From contig CACYRP010000010.1 in the NCBI GenBank assembly GCA_902776765.1, positions 1 to 64,000 on the forward strand: DNA of 64,000 nt. Reading direction: 5' to 3'. This DNA is from Fibrobacter succinogenes (GTDB lineage: Bacteria; Fibrobacterota; Fibrobacteria; Fibrobacterales; Fibrobacteraceae). How positions within the stretch are numbered: position 1 is the first letter of the stretch; each line of letters opens with the position of its first letter. The translations under genes were made by a program, and so were the position numbers. Positions 18,526-57,838 of this stretch are shown here, in pieces. The notes below the pieces were generated by a model. That model saw only the letters and a program-made list of their open reading frames with translations, was not told where the DNA came from and did no database searches.

Positions 18526-18527
18526 AA

Positions 18528-22600: not shown

Positions 22601-25600
22601 AAACGTCAATGAAGTTAACGCTGGCTATAAAGCCGAAGAAAAAGCAAGTACTTACAGTATTTTACTCGCTCTTCAAAAGATGGGTGTTTTCCAAAAAGAT
22701 AAAACCTACACCATCGAAAAAATCAAGGCTCCAGTCATTTCCAAATACCATTATCTTGTCACACAATGGCTCGGTTATCTACTTGCAGAAAAGTTTATCG
22801 AACAGCAAGGTGATTCCTACGTTTGTCGTATTGATGCCACCGAGCAAGAAAAAGAGAAACTTTGGAATGACGCCTATGAAGTTTGGAACGGCGAATACAT
22901 TGCAAAAGATTTCCTTGAATATGTCAAGCTCAATGGCGACAATCTTGCAGAAATTGCGCAAGGTAAAGTCGATCCAGGTAAATTCTTGTATGCAGAAGAA
23001 GGCGACAAATATCGTTATACCGATTCGCTTTATGTCAAAAATAAAATCATGCAGATTGCATTCAAGACTTTAGCGGAATACCTAAAGCAAATCTTGGCCG
23101 AAAATCCTGAACGCACAATCCGTATTCTCGAAGTTGGCGCAGGAACAGGCTCTGCAACAAGGTATTTATTACCCGCATTAAAGGGTCATAAATTTGAATA
23201 CTACTTCACGGATTATCTAAAGCACTTTTTCCCGACCGCACAGGAAATGTTCAAGGATTATCCGGAACTTGTATTTAAGCAGTTGGACTTGAATGAAGAT
23301 TTCCACAAGCAAGGTTTAAAATCCAATTCATTCGATATTGTCTTTGGCGGTTACGTCATGGATAACGCTATTGATTTCGAAAAGACATTGGAACAGATTG
23401 AAGATGTCATCGTTCCTGGCGGACATTTCATGTTCCTAGAATCTTATGAACTTTCGGCATGGATTACAATTACACAGGCGCTTTTGATGGATGTTCCGTC
23501 CGACGATTTGGAACGTCAAAGAGAAATTTTTGAACAGCTAAAAACGCCTCGTCACAAGTGGGCAGAAAAACTCCAGCATGGTGAAAAAGACGCTAGCATA
23601 AGTTCGTTCCCAGCAAACGACAATGCGCTCGATCTTTTGCACGTGCTATTCTTTGTCAAGCAAGTCAAATGCAACAAGCAAGTTATCGACAGCGAAAAGC
23701 TCAAGGAACACCTTGATAAATACCTTTTGCATTACATGCACCCTGGTTACATTCAGGAATTCAACGCTTTGCCGCTTTCTGCAAATGGCAAAATCGACCG
23801 CAAGAAGATTCTCAAGTTCTTCGAAGAATCAAAGGCCAAAACGGGTGCGTTAAACCTTACGCAAGTCGAAGAAGCGCTTGTCAGCAGCCTACCGATTGAA
23901 AAAGCAACCGCTTTCTTGGGCAGCAATAAGGACAACCTCATCATTGCAGTGGAACCGCGCCAAAAGCAGGGCAAGCAAATCGAAGCCGCAGAAAGTTCTT
24001 TTGCACAAATCACCGCTCAGGTCAGCGAGGAAGTCGATAAACAGTTGGCCGATTGCGATTGGGAAAAAATCAAAGTCAGTTCGAAAACACAAGAAGATGC
24101 CGCAGCGGATTCTATTCTTCTCGGACTTTTGAAAACAAACATTCTCGTATTCGGGAAAGACTTTACCAAGCAAGAATTGGAACAGGCTTTGCCTGAAAAA
24201 TATCAATTCCATGCCCAAGAATGGATTAACGCTCTCGTAAACAATGGAAAGATCGCCGCCTGCGAAAATGGTTACAAGATTTTGGAAGAAACCACTCCTG
24301 AAAAGAACGAAAAGAAGTGGGAAGAGGCCATTCAAAAGCTTGACAGCCATATCGCAAAGCCGGAATACCTCCTTTACCTCAAGGATAACGGAACTCACTT
24401 TGGCGAAATATTAAAAGGGACTGTCAATCCAGAAGAATTTGTTTACAAGAACTATACCGGTAGCAAAGACAAGAATGCACTAGAAAACTGGACTGATATC
24501 ATGCAAGCCCAGAATACAAACAAGAGCATCAACAAGTATCTTGTCGCATTCTTGGAAAAGACCATGATGAAGGATTCCAAGAAAACTTGGAGAATTCTTG
24601 AACTTGGCGCTGGCACAGGTGTAATCACCAAACAGGTTTTCGATTATCTCAAGAAATCGGGAATTCCGTTCATTTACAATTTCACGGATAAGTTCACCCA
24701 ATTCTTCGCAACAGCCTCGGAATACACTCATAAAGATCCTGCCATGATCTTTACACAATTGGATTTCAATGAGGATTTCGAAAATCAGGGCATTGCAGAA
24801 AACAGTGTCGATATTGTCCTATGCGGTGGCGTAATGGCCAATTCCGTCGATTTGAACTACACGCTAGAACAAATCAAAAAAGTCTTGGTCCCTGGCGGAT
24901 ACCTCTATATCGGAGAAGCGGTCGATAACATGGCATCCGTATCTGTCTCGCAGGCGTTAATGATGGACAAGCCTACCGACAAGATTAGAGAACAAAATAT
25001 GTTCTTGTCGAAGGACGAATGGATTCATTTCATTTGCAGTAAAGATGGGCTCAACAACATTGCCACATTCCCGCAAGACGACGCCAAGGCTCAAATGTTG
25101 GGCGGTCACTTGTATGTCAAGCAAATGAAGTACGACAAGGATGAAGTTGCTGAATCTTCTGTGAAGTTGATTCTGAATGACCTCTGCCCTGAAAAGAACA
25201 CATCCATCCATATCCTTGACAAATTGCCCTTGACCGCAGGCGGAAACGTTGACCAGCGTGCGCTCAAGCACTACGCAGATGCATTCGAAGCCTCTCAAGG
25301 TAAAGACCAGTCCATCGAAAAACGCCTTATCGAAATCGCCATCAAAGCTTTAAACATAGATTCTATCGGCAAAGACGACAATTTCTACGATTTTGGAGCC
25401 GATTCCTTGCTCATGGCGCAAATGGCTACAACGATTCGCAACGAACTCGCGCCAAACAAGACATTCGATGCAATATTAAAGCAGATGCTCGATTTTCCAA
25501 CAGTCAACGACGTTGCGAGATTCTTGAAAGATGAAATCGAAGAAAGCGCAACCCATTCTGGAGAACTGATTCAACTTCAGCGACACGGCAAAGCCAAAAA

Positions 25601-26495
25601 CGATTGCGCAAGAATTCTTCTTCCGACCGTTCTTTGGAACGATGAAATATTCCATGAAATTATTCCGCTCATGGAAAAACAAGACGAAGGTGAAATTTAC
25701 ACATTCAAGCTTTTGAATACGCAACAATTCTTTGAACTTAAAGAAGACGAAGTCGCAAGCGTCTTAGCCAAGGAATTTGCAGATAAAATCATTGCTGCCC
25801 ACGTGACAAAAGTTCAAATTATCGGATACAGTTTCAACGGAAAACTTTCGCTTGAACTTGCCGAACGTCTAGAAAATGCAGGAATCGAAGTCATAGACCT
25901 TGCTATTGTCGAAGGCGCACGTTTACCATTCGAGCTCAAGCAAACAAACATGAAAGACTTCTTCTTCGCGACATTGATTGGCGTTGCTCCAGAAAAAGTC
26001 GGATTCAAATTTGAAGACATCACTTATTTAATGGTCCAATACCTCGAAGAAACAAAGAAGAAAATCATTGATGAAACCGATTTTGAAAAAATAATCAGCA
26101 GTTCTTCTGATGCGGCAGCCATCAGAGCGTTCAACGCATTATCGGCCAACGAACGTTTTGCAAAAATCAAGGAATATTCCGGAGCATTTGCCAAAACAAC
26201 AACAGACGAAGCGTTTACTCGAATCAAGAAAACATTCGATCAAAATTTCAACGTCATGATTCATTATAATCCAACTCCGTACTTTGGCGATTTACGCTAT
26301 TTAAAGGCGAATAACGGCAACAGCATCTTCAAAAATGCAGACAAAATGTTATTCCAAAAATGGGATGATCTTTGCATTGGCGAAATCAAGTACGAAGAAC
26401 TCAAAGGCGATCACTTTACTGCGTTCACTTCAAAAGATTACGCCGTAGATTTAGCAGAAAAACTTTCATTGAATAAGCTAGAGGAACTTGCCTAA
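19608..26495 (+). CDS. NRPS: TubC docking-Cy-A(Cys) with two inserted methyltransferases-PCP-TE
   Basis: The 2295-residue termination protein has, in order: a TubC-type docking domain (about 1-58); a Cy domain (about 72-500) whose usual D-x4-D-x2-S motif reads E204-x4-D209-x2-S212; an A domain (about 515-960; TSGSTGEPKG 671-680, pocket D-L-Y-N-F-S-L-I-W, cysteine-type); methyltransferase 1 (motif I EVGAGTGS, about 1175-1182); an A10 segment NGKIDRKK (1393-1400); methyltransferase 2 (ELGAGTGV, 1665-1672); a second degenerate A10-like segment GGNVDQRAL (1878-1886); PCP (Ser1933 in GADSLL); and TE (GYSFNG, Ser2075; GDH at 2267-2269). Both methyltransferases keep motif I. The TE lacks the usual final glycine of GxSxG and has Glu where the catalytic Asp is expected (VEGA). 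Release by this TE makes it the last module. Confidence 0.92.
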   Translation: MDKNMKELVNRFENKGIHLWVDGGKIKYKASKELMTPEVLAELKANKNALIDYLSSTQDKSSVAIVIDRTNRFEPFPLTDVQSAYLLGRSKTFEYGGVACHVYLEIRYAELETSKVRNIWNAITRKYDMLHALINEAGYQQVMKEVPELDIPEWDLVKNPEKANDFEKFRKEMGNRAYTVGKWPMFGLAVSRNNESAILHFSIEFLLADWTSIWKLVAEFEAAYFDGIAVTGEEELSFRDYLIAEKKLKATPQYEKEKKYWMERIANLPDAPELPKLPASEAKDSFGRKFLRIPVESWNRIKERAKQYGLTPTVPILSCYADVLAKWSRNKRFCINMTVLNRLPLHEKVMDIVGDFTSLSLLETDCSSKENFLARSRKINGQLFADLDNRLFSGVEVMREISRQSKKTGLSMPIVYTSAIGLADSGAPLRGDFVGGISQTPQTFIDCQVMDGTFGLQVNWDYREGVFPEGVLDSMFEAFEKRLITLAEENTNWEDVAEIALPNRDAAERKAANDTRKDWNVRMLQDDFIESVKRTPKKIAIDDGKVKFTFEELDARAKVLADQLITCGVKAQDCVPVLMEKSSWQVVAVFGILYAGAIYVPIAANKAKGRAEKIVKKTGAKVAIGISSDEAILEGELTTINVDSLNANIFAVDCSRFPKRTPDDIAYIIYTSGSTGEPKGVVITHNGAMNTIDDMNSRFGITANDAVLGLSQLNFDLSVYDIFGVLACGGTVIYPTAEDYMNPEIWESLIHKNHITVWNTVPALMKMLLNFIESKPNAEPLPLREVFLSGDWIPVDMPERIRKAAPGVDVICLGGATEASIWSNYHRYDPNDGLKILPYGRPLANQTMHILDENLQPCPTMVAGQIALGGDGVALGYYLDAERTAAQFVTLPQTGEHVYLTGDMGRYLPGGEIEFLGREDTQVKIRGHRIELGEIENILKDFPAIKEAAAVVSEDKREIYSAIVAENATPDAINAKKQKFVERENAVEKFMQESIGEINVNEVNAGYKAEEKASTYSILLALQKMGVFQKDKTYTIEKIKAPVISKYHYLVTQWLGYLLAEKFIEQQGDSYVCRIDATEQEKEKLWNDAYEVWNGEYIAKDFLEYVKLNGDNLAEIAQGKVDPGKFLYAEEGDKYRYTDSLYVKNKIMQIAFKTLAEYLKQILAENPERTIRILEVGAGTGSATRYLLPALKGHKFEYYFTDYLKHFFPTAQEMFKDYPELVFKQLDLNEDFHKQGLKSNSFDIVFGGYVMDNAIDFEKTLEQIEDVIVPGGHFMFLESYELSAWITITQALLMDVPSDDLERQREIFEQLKTPRHKWAEKLQHGEKDASISSFPANDNALDLLHVLFFVKQVKCNKQVIDSEKLKEHLDKYLLHYMHPGYIQEFNALPLSANGKIDRKKILKFFEESKAKTGALNLTQVEEALVSSLPIEKATAFLGSNKDNLIIAVEPRQKQGKQIEAAESSFAQITAQVSEEVDKQLADCDWEKIKVSSKTQEDAAADSILLGLLKTNILVFGKDFTKQELEQALPEKYQFHAQEWINALVNNGKIAACENGYKILEETTPEKNEKKWEEAIQKLDSHIAKPEYLLYLKDNGTHFGEILKGTVNPEEFVYKNYTGSKDKNALENWTDIMQAQNTNKSINKYLVAFLEKTMMKDSKKTWRILELGAGTGVITKQVFDYLKKSGIPFIYNFTDKFTQFFATASEYTHKDPAMIFTQLDFNEDFENQGIAENSVDIVLCGGVMANSVDLNYTLEQIKKVLVPGGYLYIGEAVDNMASVSVSQALMMDKPTDKIREQNMFLSKDEWIHFICSKDGLNNIATFPQDDAKAQMLGGHLYVKQMKYDKDEVAESSVKLILNDLCPEKNTSIHILDKLPLTAGGNVDQRALKHYADAFEASQGKDQSIEKRLIEIAIKALNIDSIGKDDNFYDFGADSLLMAQMATTIRNELAPNKTFDAILKQMLDFPTVNDVARFLKDEIEESATHSGELIQLQRHGKAKNDCARILLPTVLWNDEIFHEIIPLMEKQDEGEIYTFKLLNTQQFFELKEDEVASVLAKEFADKIIAAHVTKVQIIGYSFNGKLSLELAERLENAGIEVIDLAIVEGARLPFELKQTNMKDFFFATLIGVAPEKVGFKFEDITYLMVQYLEETKKKIIDETDFEKIISSSSDAAAIRAFNALSANERFAKIKEYSGAFAKTTTDEAFTRIKKTFDQNFNVMIHYNPTPYFGDLRYLKANNGNSIFKNADKMLFQKWDDLCIGEIKYEELKGDHFTAFTSKDYAVDLAEKLSLNKLEELA

Positions 26496-27949
26496 TGGAT
26501 TATCAAAAAATTAGCGAGCTTATCGACAGCTTCGCTCATCGAGGCGTTACGCTCTGGCTCGAAGAAGGAAAGCTCAAGTTCCGCGCAACAAGCGGGGCAC
26601 TTTCCGCAATCGACAAAGAATGCCTCAAAGCGAATAAAGCCGACATTATCGCATTCCTCGAAAAGAAGGACGAAGACGAAAAAGACTCCTTTCCGCTTTC
26701 GCCCATTCAAAAATCGTATCTCGTCGGACGCGATCCCATTTACGATCTTGGCGGGATTAACACCCATTACTATATGGAATTGGAGCTTGATGAATCTCTA
26801 GACGTAGAACGTTTGCAGAACGCATGGAACGAAGTCATCGTCCACGATGATGCACTTCGCCTTGTCATTTCATCAGCGGGAACGCAACGTGTTCTTGAAA
26901 CTGCGCCATCCTATTCCATTGAAATTGTGGAGCTAGAATCTCCTGAACAGCGACTTGAAAAACGCAAGGAATGGAGCCATCACATTTATCCGTTGAATCA
27001 ATGGCCGTTCTTTACGATGCGTGTTTCCCGCGTTCCGAACACAAAAGATGTTCTGCATTTCGATTTCGACTGCATGATTATGGACGCCTGGAGCGCAAAG
27101 ATTGCTTTGTCGCAAATGTTCAAGTTCTATCGCCACGAAAATGTGCAATGGGTGGACTACAGTTTCAAGGATTACTGCACAGACCTTGTCGCCTACGAAA
27201 AACAGCAAGATTATTCACAGGCAGAAGCATTCTGGAAATCGAAGGTAAATGAATTAGTTTGCGAGCCTGACTTGCCCTACGCAAAACCACTTTCTGAAAT
27301 CCACAACCATCGTTTTTCAAGAATTTCGGGCGAATTGTCCATCGAAGAATTTGCGCTGTTCCAGCAGAGATGCCGAGAATACCGCACGACGCCCGCTGCG
27401 GTCATCAGCACCGCGTATCTTAAAGCGCTCCTTGGCTTTAGCAAAAACGATTCGCTGACTATCAATTCGACATTATTCAACCGCCTTCCGCTCCATAAAA
27501 ACATCAACTCGGTTGTCGGAGACTTTACAAACATCGCATTCATCACGCTCTCCAAAAAGTGCAAAAACTTTTTGGAATGTGTTCAGTCCGTACAAAAGGA
27601 TATGTGGCAACTCGTGCGATTCCACACATTTGATGGCACAAAAATTCTCAAGTTCAAGGAAGGACTTTCGCCCATGCGCGCGCAGATGCCCATCGTCATC
27701 ACCTGCGTTCTAGAAAACGGACAAAAATCCAACAGCGAAATGCCCAAAGGACTGCACCAGATTTACGCCCTCAGCAAAACACCGCAAGTCGTGTTGGATT
27801 ACCAAGTAACCAATTTCGACGGGAAACTGTCCGTCAACTGGGACTATGCAGAGCCAGCATTTACTCCAAATACGTTAAAGCAAATGTTCGCCGCGAATGT
27901 CGGTTTGCTCAAGCGATTACTGACCGAAAAATGGGAAGAGGTTCTGTAA
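26495..27949 (+). CDS. Stand-alone TubC docking plus cyclization (Cy) domain protein
   Basis: This 484-residue protein consists only of a TubC-type docking domain (about 1-55; HRGVTLWLEEGKLKFRA) and a condensation/cyclization domain with the canonical D192-x4-D197-x2-S200 motif, plus the Cy-like segments FPLSPIQKSYLVGR and VVGDFTN. It has no A or carrier domain. Since the protein at 14720 has A and PCP but no Cy, the two can together make one complete cysteine module acting in trans. The start overlaps the previous stop (TAATG). Confidence 0.9.
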   Translation: MDYQKISELIDSFAHRGVTLWLEEGKLKFRATSGALSAIDKECLKANKADIIAFLEKKDEDEKDSFPLSPIQKSYLVGRDPIYDLGGINTHYYMELELDESLDVERLQNAWNEVIVHDDALRLVISSAGTQRVLETAPSYSIEIVELESPEQRLEKRKEWSHHIYPLNQWPFFTMRVSRVPNTKDVLHFDFDCMIMDAWSAKIALSQMFKFYRHENVQWVDYSFKDYCTDLVAYEKQQDYSQAEAFWKSKVNELVCEPDLPYAKPLSEIHNHRFSRISGELSIEEFALFQQRCREYRTTPAAVISTAYLKALLGFSKNDSLTINSTLFNRLPLHKNINSVVGDFTNIAFITLSKKCKNFLECVQSVQKDMWQLVRFHTFDGTKILKFKEGLSPMRAQMPIVITCVLENGQKSNSEMPKGLHQIYALSKTPQVVLDYQVTNFDGKLSVNWDYAEPAFTPNTLKQMFAANVGLLKRLLTEKWEEVL

Positions 27950-28626
27950 TGCTCTACATTTTTTCAGAAACAGAATCATTCACTGAATGCGACTTGGCGG
28001 GGCTATGGCCCCTGCTGAGCGAACAGCGCGCAAAACGCGTCGACAAGTACCGCTATTTCAAGGATCGCAAACTTTCCGCACTCGCTTACATTCTTTTGCG
28101 ATATGCCTTGATCGAAGAAAAAGGCATTGATGAAAAAGTAGAATTTGAATTCGGTCCTTACGGAAAGCCGTTCATCAAAGGCTTACCCGAACTACAGTTT
28201 AACTTATCCCATACCGCGGGAGGAGTCGTTTGCGGACTTTCAAATACCCCCATCGGTGTTGACATTGCCGATGTAACCGCCAGTAATTTAGACTGTATCA
28301 AAACAGCAATGCACCCTGCCGAACAAAAGATAATAGCGCTTTCAAATGACAAAGCACGCACTTTCGCACGTTTCTGGTCGATGAAAGAAAGTTATCTCAA
28401 ATACACCGGTACAGGAATCGGCGAAAATATTTACAGCATAAATTTTTCAGATTTCAATGAAAATTTATTTGACTATAAAAATGGGAAAATGCAGGTCATT
28501 GAATGCGAAAAAACAGTCGTCAGTGCATTTTGCGCCGAAGCCCTAGCCATCAAGCATCTCACCAAAATAGATCTATTTGAATTTTTAATCGGAGAACCCC
28601 AATATGGAAAACTTGCCTACGCTTAA
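27949..28626 (+). CDS. Sfp-type 4'-phosphopantetheinyl transferase
   Basis: The 225-residue enzyme shows the family motifs FNLSHT (84-89), GVDIADV (103-109, magnesium-binding Asp) and WSMKESYLK (143-151). It transfers phosphopantetheine from CoA to the conserved serine of carrier domains, here the five carriers of this NRPS system. The start at 27949 overlaps the previous stop (TAATG) and has an AAGAGG site; an in-frame ATG at 27931 lies inside the previous gene. It overlaps the next gene by 23 bases. Confidence 0.93.
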   Translation: MLYIFSETESFTECDLAGLWPLLSEQRAKRVDKYRYFKDRKLSALAYILLRYALIEEKGIDEKVEFEFGPYGKPFIKGLPELQFNLSHTAGGVVCGLSNTPIGVDIADVTASNLDCIKTAMHPAEQKIIALSNDKARTFARFWSMKESYLKYTGTGIGENIYSINFSDFNENLFDYKNGKMQVIECEKTVVSAFCAEALAIKHLTKIDLFEFLIGEPQYGKLAYA

Positions 28627-30220
28627 TCAAAAATTAAAAGAATATCTCGAATGCGATTCTCGAATTCTACTTTGGAAGAACGGGATTGCAACGCCATTTT
28701 CTAAAGCGGAGCTTAAACAACGTATTCTCTATGCGCGACATACTTTCCAAAACGCAGGACTCAAGCAAGGTGATTTAGTCATTTTCCAAATCAACGGGGC
28801 TTTCAAAAAAGCATTCATGGGAAATTTCTTTGCGCTTATCAGCATGGGTGTCGCGCCAGTATTATTAACAGCAGCACGTAGCAAAGACCATGTGACACGA
28901 CTGATTCGCGTTGCAAATGACAATCCCAAAGCTGCAATTATCGCAGACCCCGAAACCGCAGAATTTATCAAGTTTTTTTGGAAAGAATGTGATGCAAGCC
29001 GCCTCATCATAGTTCCTGAAGAAATCACGGAAATTCCAGCAGGCATGCCAAAAGAAATCGAATATGTCAACGCTGACCCCAAAGCCCTTGCACTAGTACT
29101 GTATTCATCCGGCAGCACATCGGACCCCAAGGGCGTCATGATGTCTAACGAACGATTCCTTTTGATGCTCAAGAACCTGAACATCGCATTAAAGACAAGT
29201 TCTAAAGATACATGGCTGCAATGGCTTCCGCTCGAACACGCCTTCGGCATCGTAACCCTTATAACGATTCCTATGTATTACAAGACTGGCGCGGTTCATA
29301 TGGATGCAGCAGAATTTATCCAGAATCCCAAATCCTGGTTTGACGCCGTCAGTGCAACACGAGCCACAAAAACCGCCGCACCGAATTTCGCCTACCCACT
29401 TTTGCTCAAAGCAATGGACGGCAACGAGAAATGGGATTTAACCTGCATCGACTTCATTTTGAACGGCGGCGAACCTCTTTCTAAAAAAGTATTCAACGAT
29501 TTCGTCAACAAGATGGGCGAATTTGGAATGCACAAGGACGCTATCGTTCCGCTTTACGGGCTTACCGAAGCATTGGGTGCCGTAACATTCAACATGGATC
29601 ACGAATATCCTGAACTTGACATGAACAAGGTTACTTCGGGCATCGATTTCGACATGAAGGGGCTCCGCGAAAACGCAAAAGACATCGTATGCCAAGGACG
29701 CCCAATCCCCGAAATGCAAATTCGCATTTGCGATGACGACAACAAGTCCCTCCCTGACAACACCGTCGGCTCAATCCAAGTCACAAGCGACTACATCTGT
29801 ACCGGATACTTGAACAAGGACTCATCGGACATGTTTATTGATGGTTGGCTTGATACCGGCGATCTCGGCTTTTTAAGCAACGGTCTCCTCTATGTTGTCG
29901 GTCGCAAAAAAGACATGTTCTTTATCCATGGCAAAAATATTTACTTGCGCGATATCGAGCAAGTCGTCACTTCAAAATTCGGCTACCGCTGTGCAGCCTG
30001 CGGCGTCAATGATTCCGCAGCCTCTACCAATTACATTTATCTCTTTGTTGAATACGGCGAACCCGAAAAAGTAAATATCAAATCGCTCAAAGACCATGTT
30101 TTTTCAGAAATGGGATTCGGTCTCAAAGAGGTCATTCCGCTCAAATCGCTTGTACTTACAGGCACCGGAAAAATCGCCAAAGAAAAACTGTACGCGGCTT
30201 ATAAAGAAGGTAAAATTTAA
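28604..30220 (+). CDS. Acyl-AMP ligase, FAAL-like starter-unit enzyme
   Basis: The 538-residue adenylate-forming enzyme has the P-loop YSSGSTSDPKGVMMS and segments that match fatty-acyl-AMP ligases rather than aryl-acid ligases: WLPLEHAFGIVTLI (compare WLPLxHDMGL), RATKTAAPNFAYPLLLK and FILNGGEPL. A full C-terminal subdomain is present (GRKKDMFFIHGKNIYLRD). FAALs activate a fatty or carboxylic acid as AMP ester and pass it to a carrier protein. The next gene, 9 bases downstream, begins with such a carrier. The chain length is unknown. A specialised aryl-acid ligase is less likely because the salicylate-type pocket motifs are not seen and no salicylate synthase is present. Confidence 0.82.
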   Translation: MENLPTLNQKLKEYLECDSRILLWKNGIATPFSKAELKQRILYARHTFQNAGLKQGDLVIFQINGAFKKAFMGNFFALISMGVAPVLLTAARSKDHVTRLIRVANDNPKAAIIADPETAEFIKFFWKECDASRLIIVPEEITEIPAGMPKEIEYVNADPKALALVLYSSGSTSDPKGVMMSNERFLLMLKNLNIALKTSSKDTWLQWLPLEHAFGIVTLITIPMYYKTGAVHMDAAEFIQNPKSWFDAVSATRATKTAAPNFAYPLLLKAMDGNEKWDLTCIDFILNGGEPLSKKVFNDFVNKMGEFGMHKDAIVPLYGLTEALGAVTFNMDHEYPELDMNKVTSGIDFDMKGLRENAKDIVCQGRPIPEMQIRICDDDNKSLPDNTVGSIQVTSDYICTGYLNKDSSDMFIDGWLDTGDLGFLSNGLLYVVGRKKDMFFIHGKNIYLRDIEQVVTSKFGYRCAACGVNDSAASTNYIYLFVEYGEPEKVNIKSLKDHVFSEMGFGLKEVIPLKSLVLTGTGKIAKEKLYAAYKEGKI

Positions 30221-30229
30221 GGAGTATCC

Positions 30230-33200
30230 ATGTCGCAATTTTCGCAAAACGAAATTCTCGAAATCGTCAATCAAATTCTAAAGCAAAACACACAAACAGA
30301 CACTTCACTTTACGAAGTATTCGAAGATTCCATCCAAATGTTCCGCTTTCTCGGAGAAATCAAGGAAAGGCTAGAAATAGAATTTGGAATGCTTGATTTA
30401 GTTAAAGCCGAAACTATAGGAGATTTGGTCGACAAGATTCAGGAAAAAATCGGCAAAGCAGCCGATGTCGAAAAAAAAATCCCCTTGACGCCCATGCAAC
30501 AGTCGTACCGTCTAGGGCGTGAACAAAATTTCCATGGTTCTGTAAATTCCACGCATATTTATTTTGAAGTGGAGCACACCCTAGACATCGACAAGGCCGA
30601 AACCTGCATCCGCAAGCTCATTGAAACGCACGAAGCATTGCGTGCATTTGTCCATAATGAAGATCAATACATTTTATCAAAGGATATTTCTAAGAATTTC
30701 CGCATTGCGCGCGAAATAATTAGCGAAGAATCCTTGAATGCGAATCTGGAGCAAAAGCGATTTAAAGCACAAACAGAAATGCGTGATTTCGGCAAATGGC
30801 CGCTCTTTAGCATTGCAAACATCACGACCGAGAATCGCTCCATCGCCTGCATCGATTTAGAGCTCATGTTCATCGATGGTCTCAGCGCTCAAGGCCTAGC
30901 CGCCGAATTTTTCTCGCTTTATCATGATGGAACTTTGCCCACATTCGACTTTGAAAATAATCCGCAGTACATCGAATGGATTAAGTCTCGAAAAGATTCC
31001 GCAAAGCACGATGCCGACGCTGAATTTTGGCACAAGCTCGAAGAATCTATCCCCGCAGCACCGAAGCTTCCGACTGTAAGCACCCGCAATAGCGAACCCA
31101 ATATTTGCAAGAGCGTTCAAAGAACATTCGACAAAACGACTATGAAATCACTCGAAATCAACTCCCGCAAAAACGGGGTGACTTCAAGCGTTGTCTTGTT
31201 CTACCAGTACTTAAAAACTCTTGCCCGTTTTAGCGAAAGCAACGAATTGTCCGTAAACATTACGATGCTCAATCGCCCTTACGGGATCGAAGGTATGGAC
31301 CACATCATCGGAGATTACACCAGCAATGTCATCTTCGATTTTGCAAATTCTAAAATTGCGCAGTTGCCGTTAAAAGAGGCGCTCCAGCAAATCCGCGATC
31401 AAATGTACGAACGCATTGACCACAGCGCTTACGAGGGTGTCGAAGTCATCCGCGACTTGATTCGCCAAAAGAAAATCGACAACGAAAATCCGATGCCCAT
31501 CGTTTTCACAAGCATGTTATTCGGAAGACTTCCCGAAGCAAAGGGTGTAAAAGTCATCTACAAGCAATCGCAAACATCTCAAGTCAGCATCGATAACCAA
31601 ATTTGCAAAACACACGATGGAGGTCTTCTCATTTCGTGGGATTACCTCGAAAAGATTTTCCCAGGGAACACCATCGAAGAAATGTTCCGCTACTATACCG
31701 AAAGCATTGAAGCTTTCGCAAAAATGGGTGAAAGTTCTACTGAAGATTTGCAATTCGAAAAAGACGTTTTTGCATACAACAAAACAGAAAAAACATTCGA
31801 CATCGAGCACCCCATCACACGCTTGCAACGATCCTTCGAGAAATTCCGTGACCGCACTGCTTTACGCAATGGTGTCATGACGGCCATGACTTACGGAGAA
31901 CTCGAAGATTCCGTTCGCAAAGCCATGTACGGGCTCAAAATGCAAGGCGTTGCTTGCGGTGATTCCGTTGCCATCCTCTCGCAAAAGAATTTTTCAACCG
32001 TCATTGCGATTCTTGCCACAATGGGGCTTGGTGCAACATACATCCCCGTCGATTCCAAATGGCCCGAAGACCGCAAAAAATACATTCTCGAAAATTCTTC
32101 GTGCAAACTTTTGGTTGATCCGCAAAAACTCGTTGAATTGCAAACTCGCGAACGCAGCGATTTTGCACCGAACACAAATCTCGACGCCACCGCTTATGTC
32201 ATTTACACTTCGGGCAGTACAGGCGTACCCAAGGGAGTTTTGATTTCGTACAAAGGCATGATGAACACCATCATCGACATCAACGAACGTATGGGCATCA
32301 ACGAGAACACCTCCATTCTCGGGCTTTCGTCTTACTGTTTCGACCTCTCCGTCTATGACCTTTTCGGCTCACTCATCGCAGGCGCAGAACTCGACATTGC
32401 CAAGGATATTCGCGAAACCGACGAAATCAGGCACTTCATGGACCATTCCAAAAACATCCTCTGGAACTCAGTCCCTGCCGGCATGGAGCTTTTCATCGAC
32501 AGTCTCGAAGAATCCTACGTCAATCACGAGCTCAAATCCGTGCTACTCAGCGGCGACTGGATTTCCGTTTCGCTACCGGCCCGCATCGCAAAGCACTTCC
32601 CCGAAGCCAAAATCTACAGTTTAGGCGGCGCAACCGAAGCCTCCATTTGGTCCATCATCTTCCCGATTGAACATGTCGAAGATTCTTGGCAAAGCATTCC
32701 TTACGGCTATCCGCTTGCAAACCAGACGATTTATGTGCTGAATGAATCTCTCGAAATTTGCCCGCCCGAAGTTCAGGGAGAAATCTACATCGGTGGCGCA
32801 GGCGTTGCCCAAGGTTACGCCAACAGCGAAGAAAAAACGAAGGCTGCATTTATCGACCATCCAAAATTCGGACGCATCTACAAGACCGGAGATTTTGGGC
32901 GTTTTTCAAGCAACGGCTATGTAGTATTCCTCGGACGCAAAGACAGCCAAGTCAAAGTCGGCGGTTACCGCATTGAGCTCGGCGAAATCGAGCAGCGCAT
33001 GAATACCCTCGACAATGTCGATAGCGCCGTCGCTCTCCTTGACGCAAACAAACAAATCATCGCATTCTACACAGGCATACAAACAGAAAAGGACATTTTC
33101 AAAGCTGCACTCGCAAAGTTCTTGCCCTCATACATGATTCCGCATCGATTTGTACATCTCGACGCGATGCCGCTATCTTCGAATGGCAAACTAGATCGTA

Positions 33201-36200
33201 AAGCTCTTTTACAAAGTCTTGAAAAGAATGCAATCGTCGAAGCGTCTCGCAAACAAGAAACACTCACATCGACCCAATCGCAAATTCTGGATATTTGGAA
33301 ACTCGTGCTCGACCTCAAGGAAATCGATAGCAGCCTCGACTTCTTTGAACTCGGCGGCGATTCCATCAAGGCACAGCGAATTGCTCAACGCATCGATCAA
33401 AAGTACGGCATTCGCGTTCCCTTCGTTTCCGTACTCAACGCCAGAAGTGCAAGAGAATTCGCAGAATCCGTCGAAGACATGATTGTTCCAAAAACAGAAA
33501 CTGCAATAGTGCCATCCAGCGAAAGCGGCGAATCTGGCAACGGCGGCGAATTTCCGACAACAGGCGTTCAGCTGGCCTACTTGAACGGGCGAAACGACCA
33601 CTTTGAACTCGGCAAATACAATGCGCATTACTATTTCGAAATCGAATCGCAATACACCGCCGAAGAAATCGAAAACGCCATCCGCAAAGTCGTCAAAAAG
33701 CATGACGCCTTCCGCGCCATATTCCTCCCCAACGGAATGCAAAAAGTCTTGACGGATGTGCCGGATTATAAAGTCGAGGTCATCCATTGCACTCCCGAAA
33801 ATCGCGAAAGCGAGATTCTAAAAATCCGCAACGACCTTTCGCACCACATTTACAAGCATGATCAATGGCCGCTTTTCACATTCAAAGCTGTTGACTATGG
33901 CGAAGCCAATCGAATGATTTTCGTAAGTTTCGATTTGATGGTATGCGACGGCGACAGCATGCAAATCTTTTTCTCGGACTTAGGGAAAATTCTCCGCAAG
34001 CAGCCTTTTGAAGAACGCATCGGTTATTCTTACGAACGCTATGTACGCGATTTGTCGCAATCCCGCAACGAAAAACGCTACGAAGAAGATAAAGCCTATT
34101 GGATGGAACGCATCCCCAATTTCCCGGAATACCCGCATGTGCCTCTTGCGCAAAAAGTTTCAGATTGCACCGAATACACCATCGTCCGCAAGCAGGATGT
34201 CATTTGCAAAAAGACCTGGGCGAAATTCAAGGAAGTCGCAAAAGCACATCGCATTTCGCCATCATCATTACTTTGTACTATCTACGCCAAGGTTCTTGCA
34301 CGTTGGAGCAACCAACAAGACCTGGTTTTGAACCTTACCGCTTTTGAGCGCAAACCATTCCACAAGGATGTTGAAAAAATCATCGGTGACTTCACCAAGC
34401 TTTTACCTCTCGCACTTTCGATGAACGAAAATGATTTGTGGAAACAGGCATCCGATGTGCAAACACGCATCATGGACGGACTGGAACACTTGTCGTTTGA
34501 CGGCACCGAAATCATGCGTGAACTCGCAAAGTCCAAAGGGCAATTCGGCAAAGCCATTTTACCAGTCGTGTTCACATGCGTTCTTTTCGATGCCCCCGAA
34601 AACTACTTTGAAGTTCTCGGTAAACTGAATTACGCCATTTCGCAGACTCCGCAAATTTTTATTGACAACCAAATTTCCGAAATGGGCAAAAAGCTCTATG
34701 TGACATGGGATGTCGTTAAAGAATTATTCGATCCCGAAATCATCGACAAGATTTTCCACGACTTTGTCGAAAACATCCGCTACATCGCAAACGGAGAAAT
34801 AAAAACAAACTTCCCCGAAATCGAAAGCATTTGGAACCGCTACAATCCTGCAGTAAAGCCTGTCCCTAAAAAGACATTGCACGGACTTGTCGCAAATGCC
34901 ATGGCGAAATTCCAAAACAACACTGCCATTGTCGGGAAAAGCAGTTCCTTGACCTACGCAGAACTGGACTCCTTTTCAAACCGTATCGCAAATTTCTTGC
35001 ACGAAAAAGGCATTATTCGCGGTGACCGCGTCGCCGTTTTGGGAGAACGCATTCCCGAAACCATTGCAAGCATTTTCGGCATTCTCAAAGCCGGTGCCGT
35101 TTATGTTCCCATCGATGTTTCTTACCCCAAGGAACGCGTAGATTTTATCTTGCAAGACGGGAACTGTAAATGCCTTCTGCAAAAGTCCTATCTTGAATCC
35201 AACGGAATCCAGAACTATAGCGACAAGCCGCTCCCCGCAATCAACCATTTTGAAGACGAAGCATACATCATCTACACTTCGGGCAGTACAGGCAAGCCCA
35301 AGGGCGTCATCATGCAGCATGGCGCAACGGCAAACACCATTATCGATGTCAACGAGCGTTTGTCCTTAAACGAAAGCGATACACTGATCGGGATTTCGTC
35401 CATCTGTTTCGACCTTTCTGTTTACGACATTTTCGGAGCCCTCAGCAGTGGTGCAAAACTCGCCCTCGTCAGCGACGCCCGCGATATGAGTGAAATTTGC
35501 AGGACACTCGTTGAGCAAAACGTGACCGTTTGGAACTCCGTGCCCGTACTTTTCGACATGGCCATGAAGCACCGCATTTCTACAAATGACTCAAGCAAGC
35601 TTTCGCTCCGCAAAGTACTCCTTTCGGGCGACCGCATTCCGCTTGACATCTGTGAAACAGCAAAGAACGCAGGCAGCAACGCAGACCTCATCAGCCTCGG
35701 TGGAGCAACCGAAGCGGCCATTTGGTCCATCATCTACCCATTCATCGAAGTACGCCCTGAATGGGATTGCGTTCCATACGGATATCCGATGAAAAATCAG
35801 ACATTCTATGTTCTTGATTCCAATTTGAACCTCTGCCCACCAGAAGTTCAAGGAGATCTTTTCATCGGCGGCGTAGGCCTCGCAAAAGGATACAACAACG
35901 ATCCCGAAAAAACGAACAAAGCATTCATCAAGCACCCCTTACTCGGTCGCATTTACCGCACCGGCGATTTGGGCAAGCTCAAGACAGAAGGCTTTATCGA
36001 ATTCTTAGGACGTTCCGATACACAAATCAAGCTCAACGGCTTCCGCATTGAACTCGGCGAAATCGAATCAGCTATTATGCATACAGGGCTTACCACACGT
36101 GCTGTCGCAGCACTCAAGGATGTTCCTGGCAGCGGAAAGCAAATCATTGCCTATGTTCTTGCGGCAAATGCTGACGCCGAAAATCTCGAAAGCGAAATCA

Positions 36201-36580
36201 AGGAAGAAATTTCCAAGACGCTTACGGGCTACATGATTCCAGCGCGCATCATCACGCTCGAAACATTCCCGCTTTCCGCAAACGGCAAAGTCGACAAAAA
36301 ACAGCTCCCGATTCCTGAAATAGCGGCGCAACCCATCGAAAAGGCCATAACAACAAACGCAGACTTATCGCCAGAAGAAAGGGAAGTTCTCGGGATTTGG
36401 CAGCAAGTATTCGAGAATCCAAACATCACCATCGAAGACGACTTTTACTCCATCGGCGGCGATTCCATTACCTTGATGAAACTTGTCGATAAATTAGCGC
36501 TCGACTTAAAGAAAACCGCATCAATTGACCAAGTTTTGCAAGCGAAAAGCATCAAGGAGTTCATAGATCTTATCCACTAA
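30230..36580 (+). CDS. NRPS: ACP-Cy-A(Cys)-PCP-Cy-A(Cys)-PCP, loading and first two extensions
   Basis: The 2116-residue protein begins with a carrier domain (about 5-75; Ser34 in EDSIQM) suited to accept the starter from the upstream FAAL. It then has two full modules. Cy1 (about 84-510) has E211-x4-D216-x2-S219; A1 (about 530-990) has TSGSTGVPKG (660-669) and pocket D-L-Y-N-L-S-L-I-W; PCP1 carries Ser1045. Cy2 (about 1108-1525) has canonical D1235-x4-D1240-x2-S1243; A2 (about 1550-2025) has TSGSTGKPKG and the same pocket; PCP2 carries Ser2079. Neither A domain has a methyltransferase insertion and there is no TE, so the chain must pass to another protein. GGAG precedes the ATG. Confidence 0.92.
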   Translation: MSQFSQNEILEIVNQILKQNTQTDTSLYEVFEDSIQMFRFLGEIKERLEIEFGMLDLVKAETIGDLVDKIQEKIGKAADVEKKIPLTPMQQSYRLGREQNFHGSVNSTHIYFEVEHTLDIDKAETCIRKLIETHEALRAFVHNEDQYILSKDISKNFRIAREIISEESLNANLEQKRFKAQTEMRDFGKWPLFSIANITTENRSIACIDLELMFIDGLSAQGLAAEFFSLYHDGTLPTFDFENNPQYIEWIKSRKDSAKHDADAEFWHKLEESIPAAPKLPTVSTRNSEPNICKSVQRTFDKTTMKSLEINSRKNGVTSSVVLFYQYLKTLARFSESNELSVNITMLNRPYGIEGMDHIIGDYTSNVIFDFANSKIAQLPLKEALQQIRDQMYERIDHSAYEGVEVIRDLIRQKKIDNENPMPIVFTSMLFGRLPEAKGVKVIYKQSQTSQVSIDNQICKTHDGGLLISWDYLEKIFPGNTIEEMFRYYTESIEAFAKMGESSTEDLQFEKDVFAYNKTEKTFDIEHPITRLQRSFEKFRDRTALRNGVMTAMTYGELEDSVRKAMYGLKMQGVACGDSVAILSQKNFSTVIAILATMGLGATYIPVDSKWPEDRKKYILENSSCKLLVDPQKLVELQTRERSDFAPNTNLDATAYVIYTSGSTGVPKGVLISYKGMMNTIIDINERMGINENTSILGLSSYCFDLSVYDLFGSLIAGAELDIAKDIRETDEIRHFMDHSKNILWNSVPAGMELFIDSLEESYVNHELKSVLLSGDWISVSLPARIAKHFPEAKIYSLGGATEASIWSIIFPIEHVEDSWQSIPYGYPLANQTIYVLNESLEICPPEVQGEIYIGGAGVAQGYANSEEKTKAAFIDHPKFGRIYKTGDFGRFSSNGYVVFLGRKDSQVKVGGYRIELGEIEQRMNTLDNVDSAVALLDANKQIIAFYTGIQTEKDIFKAALAKFLPSYMIPHRFVHLDAMPLSSNGKLDRKALLQSLEKNAIVEASRKQETLTSTQSQILDIWKLVLDLKEIDSSLDFFELGGDSIKAQRIAQRIDQKYGIRVPFVSVLNARSAREFAESVEDMIVPKTETAIVPSSESGESGNGGEFPTTGVQLAYLNGRNDHFELGKYNAHYYFEIESQYTAEEIENAIRKVVKKHDAFRAIFLPNGMQKVLTDVPDYKVEVIHCTPENRESEILKIRNDLSHHIYKHDQWPLFTFKAVDYGEANRMIFVSFDLMVCDGDSMQIFFSDLGKILRKQPFEERIGYSYERYVRDLSQSRNEKRYEEDKAYWMERIPNFPEYPHVPLAQKVSDCTEYTIVRKQDVICKKTWAKFKEVAKAHRISPSSLLCTIYAKVLARWSNQQDLVLNLTAFERKPFHKDVEKIIGDFTKLLPLALSMNENDLWKQASDVQTRIMDGLEHLSFDGTEIMRELAKSKGQFGKAILPVVFTCVLFDAPENYFEVLGKLNYAISQTPQIFIDNQISEMGKKLYVTWDVVKELFDPEIIDKIFHDFVENIRYIANGEIKTNFPEIESIWNRYNPAVKPVPKKTLHGLVANAMAKFQNNTAIVGKSSSLTYAELDSFSNRIANFLHEKGIIRGDRVAVLGERIPETIASIFGILKAGAVYVPIDVSYPKERVDFILQDGNCKCLLQKSYLESNGIQNYSDKPLPAINHFEDEAYIIYTSGSTGKPKGVIMQHGATANTIIDVNERLSLNESDTLIGISSICFDLSVYDIFGALSSGAKLALVSDARDMSEICRTLVEQNVTVWNSVPVLFDMAMKHRISTNDSSKLSLRKVLLSGDRIPLDICETAKNAGSNADLISLGGATEAAIWSIIYPFIEVRPEWDCVPYGYPMKNQTFYVLDSNLNLCPPEVQGDLFIGGVGLAKGYNNDPEKTNKAFIKHPLLGRIYRTGDLGKLKTEGFIEFLGRSDTQIKLNGFRIELGEIESAIMHTGLTTRAVAALKDVPGSGKQIIAYVLAANADAENLESEIKEEISKTLTGYMIPARIITLETFPLSANGKVDKKQLPIPEIAAQPIEKAITTNADLSPEEREVLGIWQQVFENPNITIEDDFYSIGGDSITLMKLVDKLALDLKKTASIDQVLQAKSIKEFIDLIH

Positions 36581-36803: not shown

Positions 36804-38039
36804 CTAGTCATCAAGCGGAACGATATAATAAGCAGTTCCTGTCGTTACATCCATTTCCTTCGTGACCTTTCCAGATGCAATGTCATAGCGGTACACGGCA
36901 CCACCCTTCTTATCGGCATGGCCCAAAAGAACGCTCTTGCCATCGGCATCCAAATGAATGGACGGAGCAAACCACGGAATTGTCGGAGAAAGGCCTTCAA
37001 TCTTTTCAATAGTCTTTTTCTTCAAATCAATGACAACAAATTCCCATTCGTAATTGTTATAGTTGCTCGGATCTTCGAAGTTACCGAAGAAGCCAAGGAA
37101 CTTGCCCTTACCCAAATAAGCACCACCACTCATCAAATAATTGTTATTGCTTTTTTTGCCAGCGTAAGCGGCATCATGCAAATGGAAAACCCAATCCTTA
37201 TCAAATTCAGTTTTGCCCTTCTTAAGACGAACAAAGCCTTCTTTATAACCATCCATCCAACCCATTGCGGCATTGGAATAGTAGTAGATATCGCCATCTT
37301 CATCAACGAAAGACATGGTATTGTTCATATCGTCAATAACGCCAACGGCAGCTGTAAGGTTTTCCGTAATAACCTTTTCAACCTTATCCGTCTTGACATC
37401 AATAACAGCAACAGACCCCTGAGCACCGGTAATCATGCTATTAAGATCCACCATCTGTGAAAGGGCAACGAACATTTTGCCATCGCGAATCACCGCAGAA
37501 TTCGGGACCGTAGTCACAGCGCCATTCTTTTCGTCAATATATTTGGAAAGGTCAATTGTAGCCTTTTCCTTAAGGGTAATCGGATCAAGTGCTGTAATGG
37601 CATCACCCAAAGTCTGTTCAACATACATTTTGTCCTTATCGACAAATTTCATCATGAGAGCATGTGTGCCCTTGAATTTAGCCGTAGCAGCCGGCTTATC
37701 GGACATATTGTTATCCTTGTCCAGTTCATAGCGTACAAGCGTGCTATTCATATCTTCGACATAGAGCGCATAGAGCGAGCCATTAAAATATTGGAAACTG
37801 CCCTTATTGGGGATTTCAACAAAGTCATCCACCACTTTTTTCTGATCCGCAGAAATTGACGCTGTTCCAATGAACTGGGAATTTTCCACCATGAAAGAAA
37901 ATCCGTACTTCTTTCCGCTTTCATTGGAATCGTCGGATGCATTGGAGTTCGAATCGCTACAAGCGGCAAGTCCAAAAACGAGACTGGAAACAGCGAGACC
38001 TTTAAAAAGGCTCGGAATGATTTTGTATGTCTTTTTCAT
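36804..38039 (-). CDS. Surface-type lipoprotein, beta-propeller-like (lipoprotein 1)
   Basis: The 411-residue protein has a lipoprotein signal ending in the lipobox LAAC (GLAVSSLVFGLAAC), then a Ser/Asn/Asp-rich linker. The body is made of repeated blade-like units (for example YFNGSLYALYVED, VIRDGKMFVALSQM and VIDVKTDKVEKVI) suggesting a beta-propeller. It is clearly paralogous to the lipoprotein at 45317-46516: both have TALDPITLKEKATIDLSKY-like and IDVK.DKV-like segments. It follows a TonB-dependent receptor gene by 77 bases. The pairing recalls XusB, the siderophore-binding lipoprotein partner of the receptor XusA in Bacteroides. Capture of the ferric metallophore at the cell surface is inferred. 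Confidence 0.8.
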   Translation of the reverse strand: MKKTYKIIPSLFKGLAVSSLVFGLAACSDSNSNASDDSNESGKKYGFSFMVENSQFIGTASISADQKKVVDDFVEIPNKGSFQYFNGSLYALYVEDMNSTLVRYELDKDNNMSDKPAATAKFKGTHALMMKFVDKDKMYVEQTLGDAITALDPITLKEKATIDLSKYIDEKNGAVTTVPNSAVIRDGKMFVALSQMVDLNSMITGAQGSVAVIDVKTDKVEKVITENLTAAVGVIDDMNNTMSFVDEDGDIYYYSNAAMGWMDGYKEGFVRLKKGKTEFDKDWVFHLHDAAYAGKKSNNNYLMSGGAYLGKGKFLGFFGNFEDPSNYNNYEWEFVVIDLKKKTIEKIEGLSPTIPWFAPSIHLDADGKSVLLGHADKKGGAVYRYDIASGKVTKEMDVTTGTAYYIVPLDD

Positions 38040-38116
38040 ATTATTCCTTTTTGTTGTTTAAATTTTCCGTCACAATGTCATCCTAAAGTCCGAAGAGCAA
38101 TAGGAGCCATCATTTT

Positions 38117-40357
38117 TCAAATCGAAAATTTCACCTTCGTCGCAAAAGCCCTGCCCGGTTTTGATTCACCGTACTTATCGTAAACACGTTCATCCGTTAA
38201 ATTATGAACTTCAAAACTCCATGAAAGTTTATTCGCAAAAATTGAATATTCCACGCCCAAATCTTGCGTAAACGAACTTGGAATCGTACGATCCTGCTTT
38301 TTAGAAACCTTCCAGGTGTAGTAATAATCATCCGTATAATTTGCAAACCAGTAAAGTTTTAAAAAATCTTCGTTGAAAAAAAGATCACCACTATGAAATT
38401 CTGCACCAAAATTCATATAGAATGTCGGCATATTCGGCACAACCAAATCCTTTGCAATGCCATAAGAAAAATCAGCTTCGCGGCTCTTGGCATCCTGTTT
38501 TGTCAGGTTAAACGAAAGCGCTATATATTCATTCACATCAACGCCCAAGTCTATTTCAAAGCCACTCGTTTTTGTACCAACGCTGTTATAATACGGGCGC
38601 GGCACAGCAACATAGCTGTTCCAATAAATCCGGTCATCCATCAAAAGGTAGAACCAGTTGAATTCAAGATGAAGCTTTAACAAAAGCGGAATCTTATCTA
38701 AATCAAGTTCTGCACCCGCCGTAAAGTTATCGGAATGTTCCGGTTTTAAATTTGGAGAGCAAGCCACATAAATTCCGTCGCCAAAAATTTCTTCACGAGT
38801 CGGGAATCTCAAGCTGTGCTGATACCCAGCCTTGACCGCCAACGCTTCCATCAACTTCACCCGCAAATTTTCGCTAAAGCCAAAATCTTTCTGCGAATAC
38901 TCATCATTAATCAATTGCTGCACTCTATTTTCGCCGTCATTATCGGCTTCGATATTGTAAAAGTATCCCTTGATTCCAGCCACATTCTGGATTCTTTTAT
39001 TCCAAAAGTTATTTTCAAGAGATAACCCCGTTATAAGCGAATAAGCGTGTCCTGGAAAACCAGCATTATTCAGCTTTTTATTTTTCACAGACAATTTATC
39101 TTTCGAATCCTGAGATTCATAACGGAACAATCCGCTCCACGTCAGGTTATGATTTTCAGAAAATTCATAATTAACATTCCAAGGGACAAGCAATGAATAA
39201 TTTTTATATTCATAAAACGAAGGAGAGCCGAGAGTAATTTCGCCTAGTGAAACTTCACTTTCTTTATAGTCCGACTTATCCCAACCATAATAATACACAT
39301 GAGTCGTGTCAACAACACTTTCTTCACCATAATTAAAGCCTATAGAAATAGCAGCGGAAAGTCCATCCACAAACAAGTTCGTTTTTTCCAATGATAATGA
39401 AACTCCGTAGCCGAAGGCATCAGCAGAAGCATGTTCTACACGATGCGCTGTCGATTGGATTTCTTTATCACTTGCACCAAAGCTTGCTCCAATGCTGATT
39501 TTATCAAAGTAGAAGTTATTCAAGTTGACAAATGGGGAAATATTATAACTGTAATAACGGCCATAATCTCGCGTCACCACCGTATCCATATACGGAGTGG
39601 TAAATTCGTAATCATTATCGGAATAGTTATAATATGCAGAGAGCCCCGTTTCAACAGCACGTCTTTTCAGCGAGTCCGTCACCCACACGTATTTTGCATC
39701 AAGCGATGCCTTATGTGTATTGAAACTTCCGAACGAATAAGAACCTGTAACGGAACTTTCGAACAAGTTCTTCGTCACAACATTGATAACGCCGCCCATG
39801 CCATCTGTTGCAAAACGTTCCGGCACATAACTCTTGTAAACTTCAATGCGATCAATTTTATCGATAGGAATATCGTTAATTGAAAGGCTACCATTTCCAT
39901 TATCCACAGGAACGCCATCCACAAGGACTTTGACGTTCTTGCCTTCCATGCCGCGAATATTGATTTTACTTTCGCCGCCGAGACCGCCCGATTGACGGAC
40001 TTTCACGCCCGATGAACGGTTTGTCGCTTCGGCAATTGTCGCACTGGAACCTTGCAATTCCTTTGTATCCAAGACCTTGACGGATTCAGCCTTTATTTTT
40101 GCATCAATGGGAGCCGTTTCCGCTTCAGTTTCATCTTCAACAGATAGCCCTTCAAGAACCGTAACATCCGAAGGCTTTGCGGAACGTTCAGAATTCGGAG
40201 ATGTACTTACTGCAGATTCATTAGATGGCGCAGCACTAGCCGCATCTGTAATAGTCGCAGGCTCATCGAAAAATGCGTCATCATAGCTCGTGACTTCTTC
40301 GTTCTGTGCAAATACGCAAATCGAAGAAAGAGCAATAGAAGCAAAAACTTTTTTCAT
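38117..40357 (-). CDS. TonB-dependent outer-membrane receptor 1
   Basis: From the ATG at 40357 the receptor has about 746 residues. It has a signal peptide (MKKVFASIALSSICVFAQ), an acidic, Ser/Ala-rich N-terminal stretch, a plug domain (VKVLDTKELQGSSATIAEA, then KINIRGMEGKNVKVLVDGVPV and GGVINVVTK) and a beta-barrel ending in TKVKFSI. The upstream TTG at 40396 is less likely as start. It is paralogous to the receptor at 42847-45099. It heads an operon with lipoprotein 1 and sits below operator B. The substrate is probably the locus's own ferric metallophore, or a related xenosiderophore. Confidence 0.93.
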   Translation of the reverse strand: MKKVFASIALSSICVFAQNEEVTSYDDAFFDEPATITDAASAAPSNESAVSTSPNSERSAKPSDVTVLEGLSVEDETEAETAPIDAKIKAESVKVLDTKELQGSSATIAEATNRSSGVKVRQSGGLGGESKINIRGMEGKNVKVLVDGVPVDNGNGSLSINDIPIDKIDRIEVYKSYVPERFATDGMGGVINVVTKNLFESSVTGSYSFGSFNTHKASLDAKYVWVTDSLKRRAVETGLSAYYNYSDNDYEFTTPYMDTVVTRDYGRYYSYNISPFVNLNNFYFDKISIGASFGASDKEIQSTAHRVEHASADAFGYGVSLSLEKTNLFVDGLSAAISIGFNYGEESVVDTTHVYYYGWDKSDYKESEVSLGEITLGSPSFYEYKNYSLLVPWNVNYEFSENHNLTWSGLFRYESQDSKDKLSVKNKKLNNAGFPGHAYSLITGLSLENNFWNKRIQNVAGIKGYFYNIEADNDGENRVQQLINDEYSQKDFGFSENLRVKLMEALAVKAGYQHSLRFPTREEIFGDGIYVACSPNLKPEHSDNFTAGAELDLDKIPLLLKLHLEFNWFYLLMDDRIYWNSYVAVPRPYYNSVGTKTSGFEIDLGVDVNEYIALSFNLTKQDAKSREADFSYGIAKDLVVPNMPTFYMNFGAEFHSGDLFFNEDFLKLYWFANYTDDYYYTWKVSKKQDRTIPSSFTQDLGVEYSIFANKLSWSFEVHNLTDERVYDKYGESKPGRAFATKVKFSI

Positions 40358-40444
40358 CTTTGTAATCTCATCCACCCATTTACTTTTAATTTTCAATCAC
40401 AAATTGTCGAGTAAAAATAAATTCAAAACACCACCATTTTCTAC

Positions 40445-40475
40445 TCTAAAATGTTTGACTACAATCCAATTAGAC
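40445..40475. promoter_or_regulatory. Operator B upstream of receptor 1
   Basis: TCTAAAATGTT (40445-40455) and TCCAATTAGAC (40465-40475) are 20 bp apart. They lie in a 47-base block that aligns without gaps to the tonB operator at 10272-10318. The site is about 90 bases before the receptor start, between it and the feoB terminator. Confidence 0.75.
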
Positions 40476-40491
40476 GAGGATAACTTTTTAC

Positions 40492-57825: not shown

Positions 57826-57838
57826 TTAACGCTCCCTA

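Follow-up and report, generated by a model that had tools for sequence, protein, structure and literature searches.

In the assembly of yersiniabactin and pyochelin (HMWP2, PchE/PchF) salicylate is made and loaded, and thiazoline siderophores are usually capped with salicylate. The aryl starter of micacocidin is built by an iterative PKS, and fischerazoles contain thiazoles. Micacocidin and massiliachelin represent a FAAL-started thiazoline siderophore type (excerpt of PMC6604713), and a table in PMC11837247 gives C6 for the micacocidin-type FAAL, which is fused to the iterative PKS, and includes fischerazoles among FAAL products. Other thiazoline metallophores in excerpts of PMC12210259 and PMC11877528 are fatuamide, which is accompanied by a salicylate synthase, and the lusichelins, considered by their authors to be akin to salicyl-thiazoline siderophores. 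The literature searches made here turned up no NRPS siderophore from Fibrobacter; the NRPS discussed in the excerpt of PMC8406330 is fungal rather than from Fibrobacter, and among the titles listed for mirabazole and thiangazole none pointed to a similar cluster.

A thiazoline-type gene cluster in Fibrobacter

The window, by which we mean the whole 64,000-nucleotide stretch of DNA that was analysed, corresponds to contig C10 of G000, a Fibrobacter-family genome of 3.92 Mb in 117 contigs that is 93% complete; among named entries, its closest relatives in a contig scan are rumen MAGs assigned to Fibrobacter succinogenes. A one-directional run of genes on the forward strand (10440-36580) encodes two ABC exporter-type ATPase/permeases (10440-13951), a type II thioesterase identified by Pfam scan (13970-14713), an A(Cys)-MT-like-PCP protein (14720-17449), a saccharopine-dehydrogenase-like protein (17446-18525), a thiazolinyl imine reductase scoring over the TIGR01761 cut-off (18477-19601), an NRPS with the order TubC-Cy-A(Cys)-MT-MT-PCP-thioesterase-like (19608-26495), a stand-alone TubC-dock and Cy domain (26495-27949), a 4'-phosphopantetheinyl transferase (27931-28626), a stand-alone FAAL-type AMP ligase of 538 aa that is the proposed loading enzyme (P0001; 28604-30220) and a 2116-aa NRPS of the form carrier-Cy-A(Cys)-PCP-Cy-A(Cys)-PCP (30230-36580). 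Past this NRPS, the opposite strand carries, in order, a lipoprotein-like gene and a TonB-dependent receptor (together 36804-40396; the receptor is MxcH-like, below cut-off), FeoB (40563-42617), another receptor and another lipoprotein-like gene. The operon is completely syntenic in relatives, at protein identities of 50-97%, indicating that the arrangement of ligase and NRPS is more than chance.

Several features were noted along the run and beyond it. The MT-like insert of 14720-17449 has a degenerate glycine motif (ARSGIGAS); it may instead be an epimerase insert like that of PchE. The saccharopine-dehydrogenase-like protein matches 4ina weakly (E 0.0098), has no Pfam or NCBIfam match and is 49-55% identical between operon types, and thus varies with the NRPS variant. 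The position of FeoB between two TonB receptor genes is an unusual site for a ferrous iron transporter, and a gene pair at 54868-59851 resembles, as read by eye, a type III restriction-modification system.

The NRPS begins 9 bases after the ligase ORF and contains three PP-binding stretches (Pfam), the first of which forms an N-terminal carrier (30230-30454) with Ser34 (30329-30331) in FEDSIQMF. The ORFs and this motif bear out the original prediction of a carrier directly downstream of the ligase, although the end coordinate given there, 30320, lies 91 bases inside the NRPS gene. All four A domains of the cluster have codes that we take to specify cysteine (DLYNLSLIW in three, DLYNFSLIW in one). 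In two of the four Cy domains, Glu replaces the first Asp of DxxxxDxxS: LELMFIDGLS, in the first Cy of 30230-36580, is conserved as a Glu variant in 9/9 operons, and IEFLLADWTS, in the Cy of 19608-26495, belongs to a pattern matched in seven of nine operons and in neither G126 nor G132.

The locus thus combines Cy domains and cysteine-type A domains with a thiazolinyl imine reductase, which is the hallmark used here for yersiniabactin/pyochelin-type assembly. It further shares with those systems an N-terminal carrier that precedes Cy-A(Cys)-PCP, a phosphopantetheinyl transferase, a type II thioesterase, ABC exporters, a TonB receptor and an AraC-type regulator. Unlike them, it has four A(Cys) domains, lacks a PKS module and, in place of a salicylate synthase and salicylate-AMP ligase, has the FAAL-type ligase. 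With micacocidin and massiliachelin it has in common the FAAL start of a thiazoline siderophore type, but in the present locus the FAAL is a separate protein encoded next to a Cy NRPS, and the searches gave no type I PKS acyltransferase. The loading of an NRPS carrier by a FAAL is also seen in the iturin family (BamA, MycA, ItuA), whose acyl ligases are the nearest sequence relatives in plasmids (tblastn); these have a fatty-acid pocket (Asp235, Phe/Leu208) and are followed by KS and aminotransferase, where the present locus has Cy.

The combination of a FAAL with thiazoline-forming Cy domains had been called unusual, which holds only in part, since a contig scan returned 25 loci that include five from Fibrobacter and four from Lacrimispora/Hungatella (L066-L069), and the latter four likewise have a FAAL, a carrier and two cysteine-type Cy modules in the same order. 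A FAAL feeding Cys-Cy modules is therefore not unique. A viral scan found no relatives. In three of the four Lacrimispora/Hungatella loci FAAL-ACP-Cy-A-PCP-Cy-A-PCP-R is a single protein, in contrast to the stand-alone ligase of the window; in L066 the ligase, carrier and NRPS lie in broken frames and the terminal reductase was read by eye. The Lacrimispora/Hungatella line ends in a reductase and its ligase is only 25% identical to that of the window, but the fused proteins are collinear with the window NRPS from carrier residue 9-15 onwards, at 33-34% identity. Genes for a SagB-type dehydrogenase and a DAHP synthase adjoin the L066 cluster, a hint of an aromatic starter there. Another FAAL of 30% identity (in G039) was set aside as a relative, being part of a PKS in an unrelated context.

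The loading ligase is a FAAL-type enzyme

P0001 has an AMP-binding match (Pfam), and its best solved relatives by sequence are the keto-acid-selecting A domain 6ulx, McyG (4r0m) and the FAALs 3kxw and 3pbk, against all of which salicylate and DHB ligases score far lower (229 bits for 6ulx vs 53 for a salicylate-AMP ligase). In a fold comparison of the predicted structure (mean pLDDT 87), the top places likewise go to McyG, the keto-acid domain and FAALs. In a tree of 26 rows the P0001 family falls within the FAAL clade with support of 100/100, in a sub-clade (96/91) with iturin-type acyl ligases, the keto-acid domain and the Lacrimispora FAALs, and EntE, the single aryl-AMP ligase row and on a long branch, falls outside.

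The FAAL features described in an excerpt of PMC8460268 were compared with P0001 and are mostly present. By alignment, the FAAL-specific insertion lies at about residues 330-360 (29591-29683, forward strand); the enclosing span Y318-I368 has 51 residues, compared with 54-57 in LpFAAL, EcFAAL and the second Diaphorobacter FAAL and 28 in both EntE and a CoA-ligase-like protein. The FAAL-specific helix region, placed by sequence alignment alone, is AAEFIQNP (residues 235-242; 29306-29329, forward strand), which aligns gap-free with EcFAAL and LpFAAL and is deleted in EntE. The bulky blockers of the CoA pocket are W207, F214 (Phe for Met) and F262, corresponding to W224, M231 and F279 of EcFAAL, and, of the pantetheine-tunnel prolines, P209 (EcFAAL P226) is present and P107 of EcFAAL has no equivalent. 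The two FAAL-like segments reported originally were located at residues 207-215 (WLPLEHAFG) and 253-267 (RATKTAAPNFAYPLL). Taken together, the tree, the insertion, the helix region and the nearest solved relatives identify P0001 as a FAAL-type enzyme.

Proposed assembly and choice of starter acid

The reading that we consider probable is that this ligase loads a non-amino acid onto the carrier of the HMWP2-like NRPS to give a salicylate-free polythiazoline metallophore. The stand-alone ligase would adenylate a carboxylic acid without an alpha-amino group and pass the acyl-AMP to the N-terminal carrier, after which the two Cy modules of the same NRPS would add two cysteine-derived thiazolines and the free Cy with the A-PCP protein, together with the terminal Cy module, would add two further ones. 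Reduction, C-methylation and thioesterase release would complete the chain, and the product would leave by the ABC transporters and return via the TonB receptor under a shared operator. A siderophore context is suggested by the thiazolinyl imine reductase, the TonB receptor and the unique operator pair, which is kept in four relatives.

The acid itself is probably small, being branched, short or an arylpropanoid, as judged from pocket positions numbered by alignment rather than from a structure. Within WLPLEHAFG (29222-29248, forward strand), F214 replaces the FAAL Met and A213 occupies position 235, which is Asp in 8/8 other FAALs aligned, Ala in the window and G143, and Val in G064; elsewhere this position is Ile in the keto-acid domain, Val227 in McyG and Asn in EntE. 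Position 330 is Gly in P0001 vs Val, Leu or Ile in other FAALs. Trp204 (29213-29215, forward strand) aligns with Phe208 of ItuAL/BamA, a position that is Ser in the keto-acid domain and Thr in McyG. Phe208 is the pocket floor of iturin synthetase and sets chain length, and bigger side chains there shorten the chain or abolish production (excerpt of PMC11751314). Val227 of McyG is critical for hydrophobic substrates (excerpt of PMC11209926). With W204, a single residue, as its proposed floor, and with A213, F214 and G325, the pocket appears small, and it seems to depart from that of fatty-acid FAALs, resembling McyG and the keto-acid domain at position 235. The comparison with characterised FAALs that had been proposed thus supports the class of the enzyme through its insertion and helix and diverges at position 235, position 330 and the floor residue.

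These positions bear most directly on the alternative that an ordinary medium or long fatty acid is loaded, giving an amphiphilic lipo-polythiazoline. Membership in the FAAL clade, the insertion and helix region, and the iturin-type fatty-acid ligases as nearest high-scoring relatives all speak for a lipid starter, but Ala or Val for the Asp of position 235, Gly at position 330 and a floor Trp, at a site where bulkier residues cost iturin synthetase chain length or activity, speak against it. Because the pocket departs in these respects, a small branched or aryl acid is expected rather than a long fatty acid, and on pocket grounds a fatty-acid substrate is less likely than such an acid; we regard the lipid alternative as rather unlikely overall. 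FAALs are often promiscuous, and their pocket residues are poor predictors of chain length (section 4.2 of PMC11837247, seen as an excerpt).

A special case within the favoured reading is an arylpropanoid starter (cinnamate, p-coumarate or phenylpropionate), drawn from the diet or from the organism's own aromatic amino acid lyase. McyG, a phenylpropanoid-loading domain, is the best match in fold among solved structures and ranks second there as a kind of relative by sequence, and its V227 aligns with A213 of the window and with the Val of G064. McyG and 6ulx, the nearest solved structures and both without Asp at position 235, are domains of large modules, that of McyG leading into a PKS, rather than stand-alone ligases. 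An aromatic amino acid lyase is present in the genome in an aryl-polyene-like cluster (L010; C3:146000-164000), but no operator copy was found at that cluster, identity to McyG is only about 26%, and a visual reading of the alignment shows the remaining pocket columns to differ from those of McyG. An arylpropanoid starter is a doubtful specification of the small acid.

Salicylate supply, PKS supply and the operator

No salicylate or isochorismate synthase was found in G000, where the chorismate-binding domain occurs only in TrpE and PabB. The eight other ligase-bearing genomes each have one or two chorismate-binding proteins of TrpE/PabB size (in G129, a single one in three frame-broken pieces) and no salicylate synthase. 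Neither a type I nor a type III PKS was detected, consistent with the original statement that none is visible: Acyl_transf_1 is found in one protein of FabD size in each of nine genomes and in none of the scanned operon proteins, and no type III PKS was found in five of five genomes. Supply of the starter by an unlinked PKS was rejected on these grounds. The six ketosynthase matches in G000 lie at four places, namely C38, C3:125897, C33 (an 803-aa double KS adjoining FabD and FabG) and an aryl-polyene-like pair on C3. The L010 cluster, which contains the aromatic amino acid lyase, an AMP-binding enzyme, type II ketosynthases and a reductase, is unlinked to the NRPS operon.

A candidate bipartite operator, CTACTCTAAAA-N15-CAATTAGACGA, has two genomic copies and no more at up to three mismatches, both in the cluster: between TonB and the biosynthetic operon (10275-10311, forward strand) and upstream of the TonB-dependent receptor (40441-40477, forward strand), with both copies oriented alike relative to the TonB and receptor genes. 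No further copy was found in the genome at this threshold, including the C3 lyase cluster, and the reversed-motif control gave no matches. Consequently, no unlinked PKS or salicylate synthase gene carrying the operator was found genome-wide; the presence of such a gene had been named as contradicting FAAL-type loading. The pair is present with two or three mismatches in the fetched stretches of G064, G067, G131 and G129; the scanned stretch of G143, whose contig ends inside the operon, has no copy, and other pairs of intergenic stretches reach only 17-19 of 22 matches. The AraC-type regulator encoded at 2964-3905 likely binds this predicted operator.

Loading of an external aryl acid (salicylate or dihydroxybenzoate), which would give a normal phenolate siderophore, is highly improbable. 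The other thiazoline siderophore genes here all belong to the yersiniabactin/pyochelin kind and plant phenolics are common in the rumen, but the ligase lies outside the EntE clade, the Asn at position 235 that we take to be the signature of aryl-acid ligases is missing, and there is the lack of a detectable salicylate or isochorismate synthase. Assignment of P0001 as an EntE/PchD/YbtE-type ligase was rejected on its position outside the EntE group and on Ala213 where EntE has Asn, and salicylate loading on clade, position 235 and the missing synthase, making salicylate a very unlikely starter. The original prediction of FAAL-type loading in place of salicylate loading therefore stands as to enzyme class and salicylate supply, and is weakened as to a fatty acid. 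That the ligase is degenerate or unrelated and the chain starts another way is scarcely credible, given an intact P-loop and A10 Lys523 and a ligase 89-91% identical to that of the window in six same-genus genomes, compared with 75-83% for the neighbouring transferase and NRPS.

Exchange of the loading cassette

The ligase is found at an identity of at least 58% in nine of 167 Fibrobacterota genomes; with a looser E limit matches of some kind appear in 154 of the 167, the majority being to other AMP-binding enzymes with 24-40% identity. The operons of the nine genomes were compared. For G143, whose contig ends inside the A-MT-PCP gene, the genes upstream of that point were outside the comparison; in G126, G127 and G132 the stretches compared stopped within the lipoprotein genes and did not reach the receptor. 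The terminal NRPS lacks the two methyltransferases (1422 aa) in two of the nine operons, G064 and G131 (by a domain scan of the G064 protein); the 1912-aa NRPS of G126 was counted as methyltransferase-carrying.

A divergent ligase occurs only in G064. In window coordinates, DNA identity between G064 and G131 is 92.7% (1992/2149) left of 28652, 62.1% (1072/1727) within 28652-30379 (forward strand) and 89.5% (5560/6213) right of 30379, whereas the G131-G067 pair shows no such drop (86.9, 95.6 and 95.7% for left, inside and right). The replaced segment comprises the ligase from codon 17 and codons 1-50 of the carrier. The fall from about 90% outside to 62.1% inside indicates that the ligase and the first half of the carrier moved together, and G064 thus represents a natural swap of the loading cassette, ligase plus half of its partner carrier. 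This joint exchange, with the collinear fused Lacrimispora/Hungatella protein, argues that the ligase and the carrier are partners. They do not always travel together, as G143 shows: identity to the window is 81% for the ligase and only 57% for the carrier half.

The comparison of G064 with G131 also shows that starter type and methylation state are combined in more than one way in these genomes. We tentatively suggest that rumen Fibrobacter may change the primer of its metallophores between strains by recombining the ligase with the N-terminal half of the carrier, independently of methyltransferase loss, and that these metallophores are salicylate-free and start from a small acid of hydrophobic or arylpropanoid kind. 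The G064/G131 pair amounts to a natural experiment on exchanging the starter, and its breakpoint inside the carrier bears directly on ways of recombining loading ligases and carriers. A cap other than salicylate would change both the choice of metal and who can pirate the compound.
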